Source: Solemya velesiana gill symbiont
GTDB lineage: Bacteria; Pseudomonadota; Gammaproteobacteria; Chromatiales; Chromatiaceae
Direction: 5' to 3'
Assembly (NCBI RefSeq): GCF_002020805.1
Contig: NZ_MPRJ01000012.1
Location: 1-43,781, forward strand
DNA: 43,781 nucleotides
This document shows, piece by piece, positions 1,741-41,720 of the stretch (its first letter is position 1; every line of letters starts with the position of its first letter). A program made the position numbers and the translations under genes. The notes below the pieces were generated by a model. The model did no database searches and was not told the DNA's origin. It was given only the letters and a program-made list of their open reading frames with translations.

Positions 1741-4248
1741 CTATTCCGGTTCCTTCTGTTTCTCCTTCATAAGACGGTAGGCATCCCTCAGGGCCTGGTC
1801 GCGTTGTTCGAGCGCGGTTCTGATTTCTGGCTGGTCATCTAGAAGATCTTCGAGTTGGGCTCTCTCCAGGATGAAGAGCCTGCAGGGTGTCGTGGTGATA
1901 ACCCCTGTATCAGTCGTACCGTGGCCCATGAGTGCCCGTTCACCGAAGAATTCACCGGCCATCAGGGTACCCAGGTTATGGGTTACGCCTTCTGTTTCGC
2001 GGGTGAACTGGATGACGCCACGGCTGATGAGGTACAGGGCATCACTCACCTTGCCCTGGCGAATCAGGTATTTGTTCTCACTGAGGGTGATGGGTCGCGT
2101 GAGTGCTACGATCAGTTTCAGGTTTGCCTCCTCCATCTCGGCAAACAGCGGAACCTTTTTAAGCAGCACAAGCGGGTCGTCCTGAAGTTGCTGAACTGGT
2201 TGTCCCCTGAGCGCGGCGATCTGTCTCGATACGTCAGCCGCCATGGATTCGGCGATACCCTTGGGTAGCATTCCACGCTCGGCCTGCTCTTCCGTGGCTT
2301 CCAATTCAGCCAGCAGGATCAGCCGCTTGCCGAACCGCTCCTGCATAAGGGTGGCGAATTCCGGAAATTGTTCGCTGACCTGCTGCAACTGCTTGGCCGA
2401 TAGCTTGTTCCAGTTCCTGTACTTTTCGCGTACCTCGTCGACTACGCTGGCCGGTATGGATTGCAGCTTGGCCACTTCATCCAGGGAGGCGAGTACATGG
2501 CCGCTGCCCTGGTAGTGTCCCCACACCTGTTCATAGTCCTTGACGATACGCGACAAGCGCATGTGCTCGGCTATCGGGCCAAGCCACTGTGCGTATTCGG
2601 TCAGGCGGTAGAAGCCCTGCTCCAGCATGCGGCGGAAGCGGTGGGAGTGGACATGCTGAAAGGCGCCAGTATAGCGCAGGGCGTCGATCTGCATATTGAG
2701 TACCAGCAGCAGTTCGCGAAAGGATCCTTCACTCAGGTGCCCCTTCTCGTACATTTCGGTGTAGACCGCCTTCTCTTCGATGAGGGCGCGCAGGTAGCGC
2801 AGGCTGGTCTCCTGGGCCTGGGACATCTCGCTGTCCCTGAGTTCCTGGATGGAGCGGCGCGCCTCTTCGATGGCCCGCTCGCATTCGAGAGCCAGGCGGT
2901 GGGCGATGCGGCTGGAGAAGATGCCACCTTTCTGCAATTCGGGCAGGCGCTCGATTGCGCGCTGCTTCGATATCAGGTCCCGCTCCAGGAATGAAACCTG
3001 GTCGGCCAGTGGTGGGGTGTCCAGTCCCAATCTGTGCATCAGCGGTTCGATGCTCAGTCCCTGGACAAGCAGGGTGAACAGTACGGCACCCATGACCAGG
3101 GCGACGAAAAGTTCAGACTGTTCGAATGCCGGCAGGCTGAGCACGATGGCCAGGGCGATGGCGCCACGCAGGCCGCCCCAGAACATGACGAATTTGTAAG
3201 TGTTGCTGATGGGGTGTGAGCCGGGCAGTCGCCCGACCAGGGGGATCAGGCTGAACATGATGGCGGCGCGGGCCAGTATCATTCCCAGCAGTACCCAGAT
3301 CAGCAGGTCCCAGGACCCCAGCAGGGCAGAGAGGTCCACCTTCAAGCCCACCAGCAGGAACAGCAGGGCGTTGGCGATAAACGCCATCAGCTCCCAGAAG
3401 TGTTCCAGGTAGACCCGTACCGAGGTGGAGATGCGGATGCGGCCCCAGGTGCCCAGTGTCAGTCCGGCGGCCACTGTCGCCATTACGCCGCTCACATGCA
3501 GAACCTCTTCGGCGAGCAGGAAGGAGAGATAGGCGAGGGCCGTTGTCAGACCGATCTCCACGAATGGCTCCGATTCTACCCAGCCGATAATTTTACTGGC
3601 CATGTAACCGAGGGCGGTGCCGACGAGGATGCCGCCCACGAACAGGATGAAGAAATCCGCCACTCCCTGGGTCAGCGCCTCGCCACTGACCATGCCGGTG
3701 GCCAGAATGCCCACCAGGATCTTGGCGATCACGATGGAGGTGGCATCGTTGAGCAGGCTCTCACCCTCAACCAGGATGGTCAGGCGCTGGGGGGCGCCGA
3801 TCTGCCGGAACAGGGCGACCACGGCTACCGGGTCAGTGGCGCTGAGAATGGCTCCCAGCAGCAAGGCGGCTGTGAACGGGATGCCGGTTGCCAGCCACAC
3901 GAGGCCTCCAATCAGCCCGGTGGAGATCAGCAGCCCCGGTACGGCCAGGGTGAGCACGGGTGCCAGGTTATGGCGCAGCTGGCGTGCATCCAGGTTGTAG
4001 CTCGATTCGAAGATCAGGGTGGGCAGGAAGACGAAGAGGATAAGATCCGGCGAGATGGTCAGCTGATCGAGAATCTCCAGTTGATCCGGGTAGTAATTGT
4101 GCAGTTCCGCCAGCCCAATACCCACCAGAACCAATACCACGGTGAACGGCAGACGGGTCCGCTTGGCGAAGACCAGAATGGCAAGGGCGACCAGCAAAAG
4201 GGAGAAAACCGCCCAGATCACTTCGGCAACTTGAGAGGTGTGTTCCAT
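1741..4248 (-). CDS. Na+/H+ antiporter (CPA1/NhaP type) with C-terminal cyclic-nucleotide-binding domain
   Basis: 835-residue inner-membrane protein. Residues ~1-400 carry about 12 hydrophobic segments with the CPA1 signatures SATDPVAVVALF and EGESLLNDATS, so it should exchange Na+ (or K+) for protons. Residues ~420-690 are a long charged cytoplasmic region. Residues ~700-815 form a cNMP-binding fold (VPLFAEMEEANLK..., LIRQG, GEFFGERALMG). The phosphate-binding cassette is unusual: the canonical Arg after GEFFGE-ALL is not seen and the segment reads MGHGTTDTGVI, so ligand binding is uncertain. This domain order resembles plant SOS1. The ATG at 4248 has no competing start. It lies 64 bases downstream of rep on the same strand. 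Confidence 0.92.
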   Translation of the reverse strand: MEHTSQVAEVIWAVFSLLLVALAILVFAKRTRLPFTVVLVLVGIGLAELHNYYPDQLEILDQLTISPDLILFVFLPTLIFESSYNLDARQLRHNLAPVLTLAVPGLLISTGLIGGLVWLATGIPFTAALLLGAILSATDPVAVVALFRQIGAPQRLTILVEGESLLNDATSIVIAKILVGILATGMVSGEALTQGVADFFILFVGGILVGTALGYMASKIIGWVESEPFVEIGLTTALAYLSFLLAEEVLHVSGVMATVAAGLTLGTWGRIRISTSVRVYLEHFWELMAFIANALLFLLVGLKVDLSALLGSWDLLIWVLLGMILARAAIMFSLIPLVGRLPGSHPISNTYKFVMFWGGLRGAIALAIVLSLPAFEQSELFVALVMGAVLFTLLVQGLSIEPLMHRLGLDTPPLADQVSFLERDLISKQRAIERLPELQKGGIFSSRIAHRLALECERAIEEARRSIQELRDSEMSQAQETSLRYLRALIEEKAVYTEMYEKGHLSEGSFRELLLVLNMQIDALRYTGAFQHVHSHRFRRMLEQGFYRLTEYAQWLGPIAEHMRLSRIVKDYEQVWGHYQGSGHVLASLDEVAKLQSIPASVVDEVREKYRNWNKLSAKQLQQVSEQFPEFATLMQERFGKRLILLAELEATEEQAERGMLPKGIAESMAADVSRQIAALRGQPVQQLQDDPLVLLKKVPLFAEMEEANLKLIVALTRPITLSENKYLIRQGKVSDALYLISRGVIQFTRETEGVTHNLGTLMAGEFFGERALMGHGTTDTGVITTTPCRLFILERAQLEDLLDDQPEIRTALEQRDQALRDAYRLMKEKQKEPE

Positions 4249-34268: not shown

Positions 34269-34583
34269 TCAGGTCGACACTTCGCCGATCTTTTCGCGTA
34301 CAGAGTCCAGTTTGCCCTTGAGCCGGTTCTCCTTGCCTTTCCTGATATCCAGTTTTAGGGAGGAGTAGACCCTGTCGCAACCTGCCTCATCAAGCACGGC
34401 GTATGCCTTCTGCACAATGGCCATCGCCTCTTCCAGTGTCTCACTCTCGATAATGGTTCCCATAGGTGTGAGTTGGTAGCTCGCACCGCTGTCACGAATC
34501 ATTTTGATCACCTGGCTGACATAGGCGCTGACGCTTTCACCCTTGTCGGTTGGGAACATGGAAAACTCGAGAAGCACGGACAT
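34269..34583 (-). CDS. MTH1187/UPF0045 family thiamine-binding-type protein
   Basis: 104 residues from ATG 34583, with GAGG eight to ten bases upstream; a TTG at 34598 is also in frame. MSVLLEFSMFPTDKGESVSAYV, YQLTPMGTIIES and VYSSLKLDIRKGK match the UPF0045 ferredoxin-like fold, which binds thiamine in some members. It sits directly upstream of yjbQ, also linked to thiamine phosphate, which may be meaningful. Confidence 0.88.
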   Translation of the reverse strand: MSVLLEFSMFPTDKGESVSAYVSQVIKMIRDSGASYQLTPMGTIIESETLEEAMAIVQKAYAVLDEAGCDRVYSSLKLDIRKGKENRLKGKLDSVREKIGEVST

Positions 34584-34667
34584 TGGGATTATCCTCAAAA
34601 TGAAAGCTGCATGATAAGAGCAGAAAAGCGTGTATTCAAATGAACGGTGGCTGGAAGCTTACCGGGG

Positions 34668-34943
34668 TCATGAAACCTTGATTCTCACCACGTTCATCAC
34701 TTCGAACGGCATGCCGGCCACTGTTTCTGTTGCGGGATAATAGGTCAGATTTACACGCTGACCGGTCGTATTTTTATACATTTTGTTTCGCTTGTACTTG
34801 AAGGGTACGTCGCAGCCTTCGATCATGATGGCGTTGACGATTCAGTCTCCAGCCTCCCGTTGCACGTGGGAAGTCACTTTGCACATCTCTGAATGAACGA
34901 GGTTTGGATGCTTCTTGACTAGTTTCCCGGGATCAGATGTCAT
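34668..34943 (-). pseudogene. Small conserved-looking protein gene with an in-frame TGA
   Basis: From ATG 34943 the frame reads MTSDPGKLVKKHPNLVHSEM..., then TGA at 34844-34842, then IVNAIMIEGCDVPFKYKR, TTGQRVNLTYYPATETV and AGMPFEVMNVVRIKVS to a TGA at 34668. Both halves have protein-like composition and no other stop, so a single ~90-residue gene is split by one stop codon at codon 34. The function is unknown to me. A nonsense mutation is most likely; many genes here end in TGA, so general reassignment is excluded. Confidence 0.6.
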
Positions 34944-34955
34944 TTCGATTGCTGC

Positions 34956-35552
34956 TCATGTTTCAAGGTTGGCGCCGGCTGCTTCCATTTCGGTCAGCAG
35001 TTTCTTCAATTTAACCTCTGGATTCAACTCCGGATCCGTTATGTGTGACAGGTAGGCTGCCGCGGAGGCATCTATCTCTTCCCCTGTCGCCTGTACCGCA
35101 CCATGGAAGATAAAAGCCGGGAGATAGACCATGCCGATAAGGTTGGCGGTCTGCTGAAGGGGTTTTAGGAGTTCGCTCATGGCGTAGTTGTTGTAGCCCC
35201 CGGCCTGGTAGGCATCCGCTGGCCCGCCGGCAGAGATGGCGGAGATCCACTCCTTTCCTTTCAGGGCAGTGCCACCGGGCCCGTAGGCCCAGGCGTAGGT
35301 AAGAACATCGTCGAGCCACTTTTTCATCAGCGGGGGAGTCGAGTACCAGAAGAAAGGATGCTGGAATACGATGCGGTCATGCTCCAGCAGGAGTTTCTGC
35401 TCTCTTTCGATATCGATGTTCCAGTCTCCGTAGTGGCTGTACTGCCTGTTGACCGTGATATCGCCGTGCTTGTCCAGCTCACTGATCCATCGGCTATTGA
35501 CCCTGGATTGATCCTCCAGGTGGGGGTGGAAAGCATTCACCAGGATTTTCAT
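34956..35552 (-). CDS. NAD(P)H-dependent flavodoxin-fold oxidoreductase (KefF/MdaB/YwrO-like)
   Basis: 198 residues from ATG 35552, preceded by GGGAGG; the frame continues upstream without support. MKILVNAFHPHLEDQSRVN, the FMN-loop sequence IVFQHPFFWYSTPPLMKKWLDDVLTYAWAYGPGG (short excerpts of it are family-typical) and SAGGPADAYQAGGYN show a quinone reductase-type flavoprotein. The Kef regulator role cannot be inferred as no kef gene is near. Confidence 0.88.
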   Translation of the reverse strand: MKILVNAFHPHLEDQSRVNSRWISELDKHGDITVNRQYSHYGDWNIDIEREQKLLLEHDRIVFQHPFFWYSTPPLMKKWLDDVLTYAWAYGPGGTALKGKEWISAISAGGPADAYQAGGYNNYAMSELLKPLQQTANLIGMVYLPAFIFHGAVQATGEEIDASAAAYLSHITDPELNPEVKLKKLLTEMEAAGANLET

Positions 35553-35601
35553 GATATTGAACCTCCCGTTATGTAAAGCTGATGGCGAGACAAATGCTTT
35601 T

Positions 35602-35826
35602 TTACTTTCCTTGCAGGGTCTCTTTGGCTTCTTCGGCTTCCTTGAGGCCATGCATGAGTTCAGGTATCGCTTTCAATATTTGTATGATGCCGAAAATCGC
35701 AATGCCATGATGTGCGCCGATGGATGGCTCTCCAAGGGTCTCTATAATCTCGTTGCCTGCGGTTGCAAGCAGGATCAGGCCGCTAAGAATATTGAGGAAT
35801 GGGCTTTGGGTGATTCGCTTTAGCAT
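35602..35826 (-). CDS. Small membrane protein, two hydrophobic segments
   Basis: 74 residues from ATG 35826 (AGAAAGG seven bases upstream; ATG 35832 also possible). The segments FLNILSGLILLATAGNEII and HHGIAIFGIIQILKAIPELM are separated by a short polar loop, and the tail is Glu/Lys-rich (KEAEEAKETLQGK). I do not recognise a named family. It sits 20 bases after the interrupted methyltransferase on the same strand. Confidence 0.65.
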   Translation of the reverse strand: MLKRITQSPFLNILSGLILLATAGNEIIETLGEPSIGAHHGIAIFGIIQILKAIPELMHGLKEAEEAKETLQGK

Positions 35827-35845
35827 AGTCATCCTTTCTCGATCC

Positions 35846-36757
35846 TTATGGTTTTTTACGGGCCACCACCATAATCTCAATCTCGTCAAGATCGATGGTT
35901 CTTCTGCCCCAGTTACCGGCGGTACCTCCCCAGATATCAGTGACGGTAAGGCCGGCCATGGAGCAGAGCAGGGTGAGTTCCGTCGGGACGCCCCCACGCT
36001 CCCTGGTGCTGATGGGTGGCTCCCCTTCGGCAGGTGGATATTCGGCAGCCTCAACCAGCGTCAATGGATCGAAGCGACCCGCTTCGACGTCCTGGTATCT
36101 GCGTATCATGGCTGCAGCATTGAGGACTGTAAGTATCACCGTGGCACCAGGCTTCAGGCTACGGGAGATGTTCTGCAGTATATTCAGTGGCTGATCTATG
36201 GGGTCGTCTGCTTTTCCAAGCAGGCCGAAAGCACCTTCACAGAGGCAGACGGCGGCATTAAACTGATCGGCAAGTCTGAAGCGTGTGGCATCGGGGTGGA
36301 TCCATTCCACCTCCACCCCCGCCCTGGTTGCGGCTTCCACGGCCTTGGCGAGCATGCCGGAAGAGAGATCCAGCCCTGTCACCTTGTAACCACGCTTCGC
36401 CAGCTCAATGGCGTGACGGCCGGTACCGCATCCGATATCGAGAATGGATTGGCCCTCTGTCAGGGCAAGTTCTTCAAGCAGGAAATCGACCGCTGACCGC
36501 CATGGAAGGCTGGAAGCCGAGGCGGTTAGTCCCCGGTAGCCGTGAGGCCGCACTGCTTACCCGTCGTGTGCGCAGCGCGCCAGAGGGGAAGCAAAGTAGG
36601 CATCCGAACACGGGATGTCCCGAAATCTTTCACGAGGTCGAAGACTCGCTTGTTCATTGAGGGTGTTCCTGGTAAAGATATTCTCTTCGTAATATGGGGC
36701 ATGAACATCAAAGAATTCTTCCCATGTGGATCTTTCCGGCATGCTGATCTCCGTCAC
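35846..36757 (-). pseudogene. SAM-dependent class I methyltransferase interrupted by a 162-bp repeat
   Basis: The N-terminal piece MTEISMPERSTWEEFF...ENIFTRNTLNE (36757-36653) and the remainder VDFLLEELALTEGQSILDIGCGTGRH... (from 36490) are in the same reading frame and would join directly as NTLNE-VDFLLEEL, the normal family sequence. Between them lie 162 extra bases (54 codons) with a TAA at 36559-36557. Motif I ILDIGCGTGRH and the following GLDLSSGML are intact. The downstream part could start again at GTG 36553 within the repeat but would lack the first ~35 residues. Substrate unknown. Confidence 0.88.
36491..36652 (-). mobile_element. 162-bp repeat element, copy 1 (inside methyltransferase gene)
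   Basis: Its limits are set by the break in the methyltransferase protein. On the minus strand it starts CAAGCGAGTCTTCG and ends CCATGGCGGTCAGCG. The 123 bases 36491-36613 match 43649-43771 with 5 mismatches, all transitions. It contains short hairpins (GGCT-GGA-AGCC, GTGTGC-GCA-GCGCGC, CGGGA-CA-TCCCG). No terminal inverted repeats, no open frame for a transposase and no target duplication are visible. The family is unknown to me. Confidence 0.8.
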
Positions 36758-36907
36758 CAGGGTGCTGCTTGGGGTTTATGCAGGATATGAAGAAGATATA
36801 GCAGCATTATGAAGTCGTTGCCGGTGTTGGCATAAGTCGCATCTTGTTCTATAGTTGTTCTACTTTTTATTCCTGAATGTAGCGATTGCGTCCTCCAGTG
36901 AGCCGAC

Positions 36908-40589: not shown

Positions 40590-41720
40590 TTACTCCAGAA
40601 CCCGGATGTTTCTCTCCGCACAGATTGTCTTGAGCCTCTCCGGCCAGACACTGACGCTCACCTCGCCAAGGTGCGCGGTTCGAAGCAGGTACATGTAGGT
40701 CCTCGACTGCCCTATGCCGCCCCCGATGCTCAACGGAATCCTGTCGTTGAGTATGGCCTGGTGATAGGGGAGCTGCAGAAACGACTCCTGTCCCGACATC
40801 TTCAGTTGAACCTTCAGCGTCTCCCTGGTCACTCGTATACCCATGGAGGTGAGTTCATGGCGTCTTTGGGTGACCGGGTTCCAGACCAGGATGTCGCCGT
40901 TCAGGCCATGGTAGCGCTCTTCGTCAGGGCCAGGGGTTTCGGTCACCCAGTCGTCGTAATCGGCAGCGCGAAGTTCATGGGGATAGCCGTCTTTCAGCGG
41001 TCATCCGATTCCGATAATGAATATGGCCTGGGCAACCTCTTGAAGATAGCGGGTCTCACGCTCTTTTCGCGGAAGATCGGGGTATCGTGCCAGCAACTCT
41101 TCGGCGTGGATGAACTCAAGTTGCTTCGGAAAGTCCGGGTAGCGTGGATCGTCAAGTGCCGGATAGCAGGTCTGGGCAGATTTGCCGGCACGGTATATCA
41201 CCCCCCAAATTTTGCTGACTGTCTCCTTGAGGTAATCGAGATTGCGTTGTTCCGGGGTAATGGCCAGTTCCCAATCCCATTGGTCCACGTAGGCGCTGTG
41301 ATCGTGGTCCAGGAAATAGTCTTTGCGTACCGCCTTCATGTCGGTGCAGATTCCCTCCCCGGGTGCACATTGGAACTGTGCCAGGGCCATTCGCTTCCAC
41401 TTGGTGGCGGCCTGCACCACCTGTGCCGTTATGGGACGATCCAGGCCCAGGCCGCACGGGAACTCCACCGGGGTGCGTGAACCATCGCGATCCAGATAGT
41501 CGTTGACGCCGCTCTCACGGTCCACGATGAGGGGGACCTGGACCATCTGCAGGTTGAGGCTTCTGCACAGCTCCTGCTCGATCTGCTGCTTGATGGAGAA
41601 AAGTGCAGCCATGCGCTCTCTTGTCTCCAGTAGCGGTATGTAGTCCCTGGGCAGGCTTCTGGCTACATCTTCATAGTTGCCGATACCCGGGCCGGCCAGG
41701 TCGTTCACTTTATCAATCAT
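40590..41720 (-). pseudogene. asnA: Aspartate-ammonia ligase AsnA with an in-frame TGA
   Basis: The frame is continuous from ATG 41720 (GAGGA upstream) to 40590 apart from one TGA at 41003-41001. N-terminal part: VPLIVDRESGVNDYL, VDQWDWELAI, FIHAEELLARYPDLP, QAIFIIGIG. Then TGA, then PLKDGYPHELRAADYDDW, GLNGDILVWNPVTQRRHEL, SIGGGIGQSRTYMYLL. In E. coli AsnA the same place reads GIGGKLSDG, so the stop replaces the second Gly (GGA to TGA, one base). The tRNA-synthetase-like active site residues in the second half would be lost. The enzyme makes asparagine from aspartate and ammonia. Confidence 0.9.

Follow-up and report, generated by a model that had tools for sequence, protein, structure and literature searches.

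In the genome of the Solemya velesiana gill symbiont, a small accessory gene for a predicted OB-fold protein has probably been inactivated by a recent TGG to TGA nonsense mutation at codon 34. The gene lies on the minus strand of the window, by which we mean the whole 43,781-nucleotide stretch analysed here (Table 1). According to the proposed mechanism, one G-to-A change would have turned TGG at codon 34 into TGA, and translation would then stop after 33 residues. Because the stop falls before most of the predicted barrel, the product should be non-functional, save for whatever trickle the natural leakiness of UGA would allow. Loss of the gene would have been tolerated if, as we suppose, it is dispensable, and the TGA allele would be real within the population.

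Table 1. Positions in the window of the small gene, its parts, its neighbours and asnA.
Feature	Position	Strand	Remarks
Uncharacterised OB-fold family frame, split at codon 34	34668..34943	-	Terminal TGA 34670-34668
In-frame TGA, codon 34	34842..34844	-	Relatives: TGG 78/80, ATG 2/80
Pre-stop piece, 33 codons	34845..34943	-	Covers the N-terminal helix and strand 1 of an intact relative's model
Post-stop piece, 57 codons	34671..34841	-	Rest of the predicted barrel strands; conserved and open
KefF/KefG-like NAD(P)H oxidoreductase gene, upstream	34956..35651	-	Stop 12 bases before the ATG of the small gene; unmatched in the same-genus genome
MTH1187-type thiamine-binding protein gene, downstream	34269..34598	-	Also in the same-genus genome
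asnA (aspartate-ammonia ligase), TGA-interrupted	40590..41720	-	PF03590, 258.9 bits
In-frame TGA in asnA	41001..41003	-	Relatives: R, W or G

One gene with a single internal stop

Translation of the minus strand from 34943 to 34668 gave an ATG and 32 further sense codons, the TGA at 34844-34842, 57 sense codons and the closing TGA. The initial annotation had described a frame of about 90 codons ending at 34668, protein-like on both sides of a lone stop, and had taken it for one gene. Relatives were collected by searching genome contigs with the 57-residue piece that follows the stop; 130 were found, and the best 80 of these 130 were kept. All 80 align across codon 34 without an internal stop (identity 52-76%), and 52 of them cover the whole of residues 1-91. 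The described frame, its protein-like character on either side of the TGA and the view that it is one gene are all borne out by these uninterrupted alignments. Two arrangements that the annotation had named as contrary evidence were sought, and neither was seen in any of the 80: two separate genes at this place, or homologues that end at the first stop. Judged by these comparisons the frame is a real gene rather than a chance opening, and it is present as a single copy in its own assembly.

The annotation had also proposed looking up the residue that homologues carry at codon 34. Among the best 80 of the 130 relatives this codon is TGG (Trp) in 78 and ATG (Met) in two, and a wider alignment of 92 rows, some of which represent the same genome twice, holds 87 W, 3 M and the two stops of the sequence itself. 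No stop was seen at this codon in the 80 kept relatives or in the whole-genome matches. Given the TGG of these 78 relatives, a single G-to-A change suffices to explain the stop. Of the two origins suggested earlier, CGA or TGG, the second is therefore upheld, whereas the first does not apply to the small gene.

Apart from the stop, the sequence is well kept. The family is about 91 residues long, and across the 80 relatives 11 positions are invariant and a further 23, including W34, are nearly so. Leaving codon 34 aside, 33 columns of the family are conserved to 90% or more, and the interrupted copy has the usual residue at 32 of them (the exception is T38A); by leave-one-out profile score it ranks 42 of 81. 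By these two measures no decay beyond the TGA was seen. When random substitutions were simulated from the gene's own sequence, 4.6% of the runs with 10 substitutions (3.7%) and 1.0% of those with 14 (5.2%) were free of new deviations and stops. Neutral change in the small gene beyond about 3.7% thus appears disfavoured. Since there is no decay apart from the stop, the death of the gene, if it is dead, would be recent. The same lack of decay fits a very recent loss, and equally use of the gene by read-through or a sequence artefact.

A family with a predicted OB-fold

An AlphaFold2 model of an intact relative (L014) shows a small, confidently predicted barrel (mean pLDDT 91.1), five-stranded and with a single helix at the N terminus. 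The invariant residues S25, H26, Q28 and R29 lie on the first strand, and Trp34 opens the second. VIA-align placed the model nearest to the single-stranded DNA-binding proteins SSB (5odn_G; Z 10.4, rmsd 1.9, 80 aligned, 9% identity) and PriB (1woc_A; Z 10.1, rmsd 2.5, 78 aligned, 12% identity). A Foldseek search with the same model returned nothing below E 0.001 (best E 0.011) and listed OB-fold proteins of many functions; because the list is mixed and holds nothing below E 0.001, it shows a common fold, not a function. The family protein is accordingly described here as a predicted OB-fold, and binding of nucleic acid is a guess.

At the level of sequence, a search of NCBIfam at E 0.01 gave no match for any of the 80 members. 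Pfam gave no consistent family: 18 families were matched at E 0.1 over the 80 members, the commonest in seven of them, and neither an SSB nor a PriB family is among the 18. A PHROGs search with three of the 80 members yielded two matches, both weak, at E 0.03 and E 0.06. The symbiont genome has no match to PriB_gamma, for which the E. coli control was positive. No phage record matched the small gene, and among plasmid records there was one match, from Alteromonas. Two other identities were considered and set aside: Ig_J_chain, which the frame matched weakly at E 0.0033 (17.7 bits; cut-off 27 bits), was put down to chance, and matches to ribosomal protein L21 were weak, all above E 0.04.

Patchy distribution and variable neighbourhood

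In the family Chromatiaceae, six of 57 genomes hold a match to the small gene, its own included. Among 91 other whole genomes, nine have a match, and the matched stretches are stop-free; in one of the nine (G036) the match is in two pieces. Neither the small gene nor the KefF-like gene has a match in the same-genus genome, whose completeness is rated at 100%. By this distribution the small gene is evidently a patchily held accessory gene. In G036, one of the six Chromatiaceae genomes with a match and a single contig, the homologue is split by about 280-290 extra bases after about codon 55; here the gene was lost independently and in a different way. The split copy consists of L011 and L012 (contig C1, about 2299371-2299920).

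Downstream of the small gene lie the thiamine-binding protein gene and a YjbQ gene. The same-genus genome carries other sequence between the thiamine-binding gene and recG, and the genus's two genomes differ in this slot (window 34600-36900 compared with L114). The GC content of window 34600-36900 is below that of its surroundings. We read the interval as a putative variable insertion slot.

No conserved neighbour of the small-gene homologues was found among the 48 upstream and 47 downstream neighbours scanned, which were hand-picked by strand and closeness from 78 upstream and 77 downstream listed. The commonest neighbour family accounted for six of the 48 upstream and two of the 47 downstream, among the families listed (25 of 67 and 25 of 55, respectively). 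In Alteromonas macleodii (L188; NZ_OX359244.1 67464-67745) the homologue is flanked by recJ and recO on a plasmid record of 239 kb. In Shewanella algicola (L090) the start of the homologue (2899-3171) overlaps by 4 bases the end of an upstream gene (893-2902) that encodes helicase and RecQ zinc-binding domains. A further neighbour, that of L076, had been clustered, like that of L058, with a RecQ gene, and a family scan identified it as a DbpA-type RNA helicase. The recJ-recO setting, taken together with the predicted SSB/PriB-like fold, hints at a role in DNA repair; as clues to function, the recJ/recO and RecQ-type neighbours are suggestive only.

A second interrupted gene and the use of TGA as a stop codon

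As noted in the initial annotation, two TGA-interrupted genes lie within about 7 kb: asnA also has one internal TGA, at 41003-41001. At this site the closest relative found has R (CGG; 70% identity), the next has W (TGG; 64%), three further relatives at 42-44% identity have G, and in three solved structures the residue is Y, G or A, one in each; a sixth match within the class covers residues 1-189 only, short of the site. Tryptophan is thus possible there but not the rule. Since the closest relative has CGG, an origin of the CGA type is possible, and a change from CGA to TGA could account for the stop in asnA. The gene is rarer than the small one, being found in none of 54 other genomes and in six of 368 other genomes of the class. 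In another gammaproteobacterium an AsnA match is listed with one TAA inside (L186; G343, C65:48012-48941), and the tblastn match of asnA to L185 runs across two stops. Given the residues seen at its site in relatives, the TGA in asnA does not amount to a changed code.

Stop codons were counted over the window and 20 further stretches (256,899 bases), 300,680 bases in all, in which 298 gene segments were called with 295 ends in view. These ends comprise 146 TGA, 92 TAA and 57 TAG, the internal TGA of asnA being counted among the 146, and TGA is the commonest stop in the sampled genome. The release factor gene prfB is intact (498.7 bits against a 370-bit cut-off), and its translation contains SPF and GGQ, which we take to be the RF2 motifs. 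None of the 45 tRNA matches in the assembly, all read with ARAGORN, has a UCA anticodon or would otherwise read UGA. The tRNA-Trp has a CCA anticodon and a fully paired anticodon stem of 5 bp; a tRNA-Trp with a 4-bp stem is the form linked to UGA decoding in the available text of PMC13092985.

The same 300,680 bases contain 25 adjacent gene pairs in the same frame (11 with TAA, 10 with TGA and 4 with TAG), nine of which were also translated and the rest judged from 30 bases on either side. By eye, no interrupted gene besides asnA stood out among these 25, the rest looking like ordinary neighbours, with the short pair at L152 4569 ambiguous. The scan misses the small gene, whose upstream piece scores -2.1, and its sensitivity is therefore limited. 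Because the assembly is 84% complete, absences from it are not absolute.

Weighing the explanations

The TGA could be an error of the assembly or the variant of a minority strain, such that most cells would carry a sense codon and the TGA would stem from a faulty consensus or an uncommon allele. This is unlikely: the assembly is a draft (128 contigs, 84.13% complete) and the small gene has no other decay, as would be expected of an artefact or rare variant, but asnA also carries a lone TGA. A consensus built from short reads seldom contains single-base substitution errors, which counts against an artefact if this assembly was made from such reads. It is quite unlikely that read-through is tolerated here, with the ordinary tRNA-Trp decoding UGA leakily so that the usual residue, Trp, is restored at reduced expression. 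The residue inserted by leakage would be the very one that 78 of the 80 relatives carry, and the rest of the frame is conserved. In the available text of PMC7918605, UGA leakage in E. coli and Salmonella inserts Trp at very low frequency, in-frame stops are widespread in bacterial genes, many of these stops keep dN/dS < 1, and the vast majority of them are short-lived. The reports there of widespread stops and of Trp leakage keep tolerated read-through alive at a modest level. However, no special structure was found downstream of the TGA (z -0.51; nothing in Rfam at E 1 or below), the tRNA-Trp is normal (CCA, 5-bp stem), RF2 is intact, and the stop is shared by none of the relatives seen, so that there is no sign of its being kept.

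Both TGA-interrupted genes of the window are compatible with Trp, and we consider it very unlikely that UGA is partly read as Trp through intrinsically leaky termination, leaving TGA at Trp sites with reduced expression. That UGA has been reassigned to Trp in this lineage, or is ambiguously read as Trp, is highly improbable, and a change of genetic code is not supported. Trp stands at the TGA position in 78 of 80 relatives of the small gene and, for asnA, in one of the two nearest relatives found, but TGA closes 146 of 295 called segments, RF2 is present, no UCA anticodon occurs in the 45 tRNAs, the stem of the tRNA-Trp has its full 5 bp, the asnA site has R in the closest relative and G in three, and only asnA stood out by eye among the 25 same-frame pairs. 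It is most improbable that the post-stop piece is made alone by ribosomes that start again at codon 40, an ATG. This ATG is six codons past the stop and within reach of a terminating ribosome, but by eye it has no ribosome-binding site at the usual distance, the piece would be without the first strand and the invariant S25, H26, Q28 and R29, and the short form occurs in none of the 80 relatives.

Selenocysteine at codon 34 has nothing in its favour beyond the TGA itself; it is not supported, and we regard it as vanishingly improbable. The 80 relatives have W or M at this position and in no case Cys or Sec. No tRNA-Sec exceeded the cut-off (best 46.5 against 47 bits, with 150 of 318 first-look candidates scored), and ARAGORN reads the near-miss of 46.5 bits as a tRNA-Ser. 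No SelB exceeded its cut-off either in the symbiont's own assembly, which is 84% complete (best 186.4 against 242.25 bits). Folding of the 65 bases from the TGA was no better than that of shuffled sequences (z -0.51; 55 of 200 fold at least as well), and Rfam gave no match up to E 1 over 34500-35100. The initial annotation, which had advised a search for selA, selB and selC, had called selenocysteine unlikely and had judged the weak pairing after the TGA to be no convincing SECIS; these results agree with both views.

A recent nonsense mutation is the probable cause of the interruption. Two lone, Trp-compatible TGA lesions in one contig are slightly odd; two patchily held genes with one fresh lesion each are what ordinary gene turnover would give.

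Comparison with known systems

The small gene is one more young broken gene and of little import in itself; if the read-through explanation were true, it would be a natural low-expression allele. The analysis makes both selenocysteine and a code change unlikely for the Solemya velesiana gill symbiont genome, and it points to an unnamed OB-fold family, present in many gammaproteobacteria, in which one Trp is nearly invariant and for which neither Pfam nor NCBIfam gives a consistent match.

Bacteria that read UGA as Trp, which in the available text of PMC8629427 and PMC13092985 are the Mycoplasmatales, some insect endosymbionts and a family of Patescibacteriota, resemble the present case in having TGA where relatives have Trp. 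They are unlike it in that here TGA is the commonest stop, RF2 is present and neither a tRNA-Trp(UCA) nor one with a 4-bp stem was found. Set against the features of such a code, TGA serves as a stop here, RF2 is not lost, and the CCA tRNA-Trp is not of the 4-bp-stem form. The ssDNA-binding OB-fold proteins SSB and PriB are alike in the predicted fold of the intact relative (Z about 10), but unlike in sequence, with 9-12% identity to 5odn_G and 1woc_A and none of the 80 members matching NCBIfam.

The closest likeness is to the bacterial pseudogenes and in-frame stops that are due to a single nonsense change (PMC7918605), including young pseudogenes (PMC2916853), as far as the available text of these sources goes. 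Compared with that class, the present case is known from its sequence, in which a fixed pseudogene, a short-lived polymorphism and partial read-through look alike. Homology continues in frame across the stop in 80/80 relatives, and a conserved sense codon, TGG in 78/80, has been replaced. The small gene thus resembles the members of this class in its lone stop at a conserved sense codon, and likewise in being a patchily held gene in which no other decay was seen.
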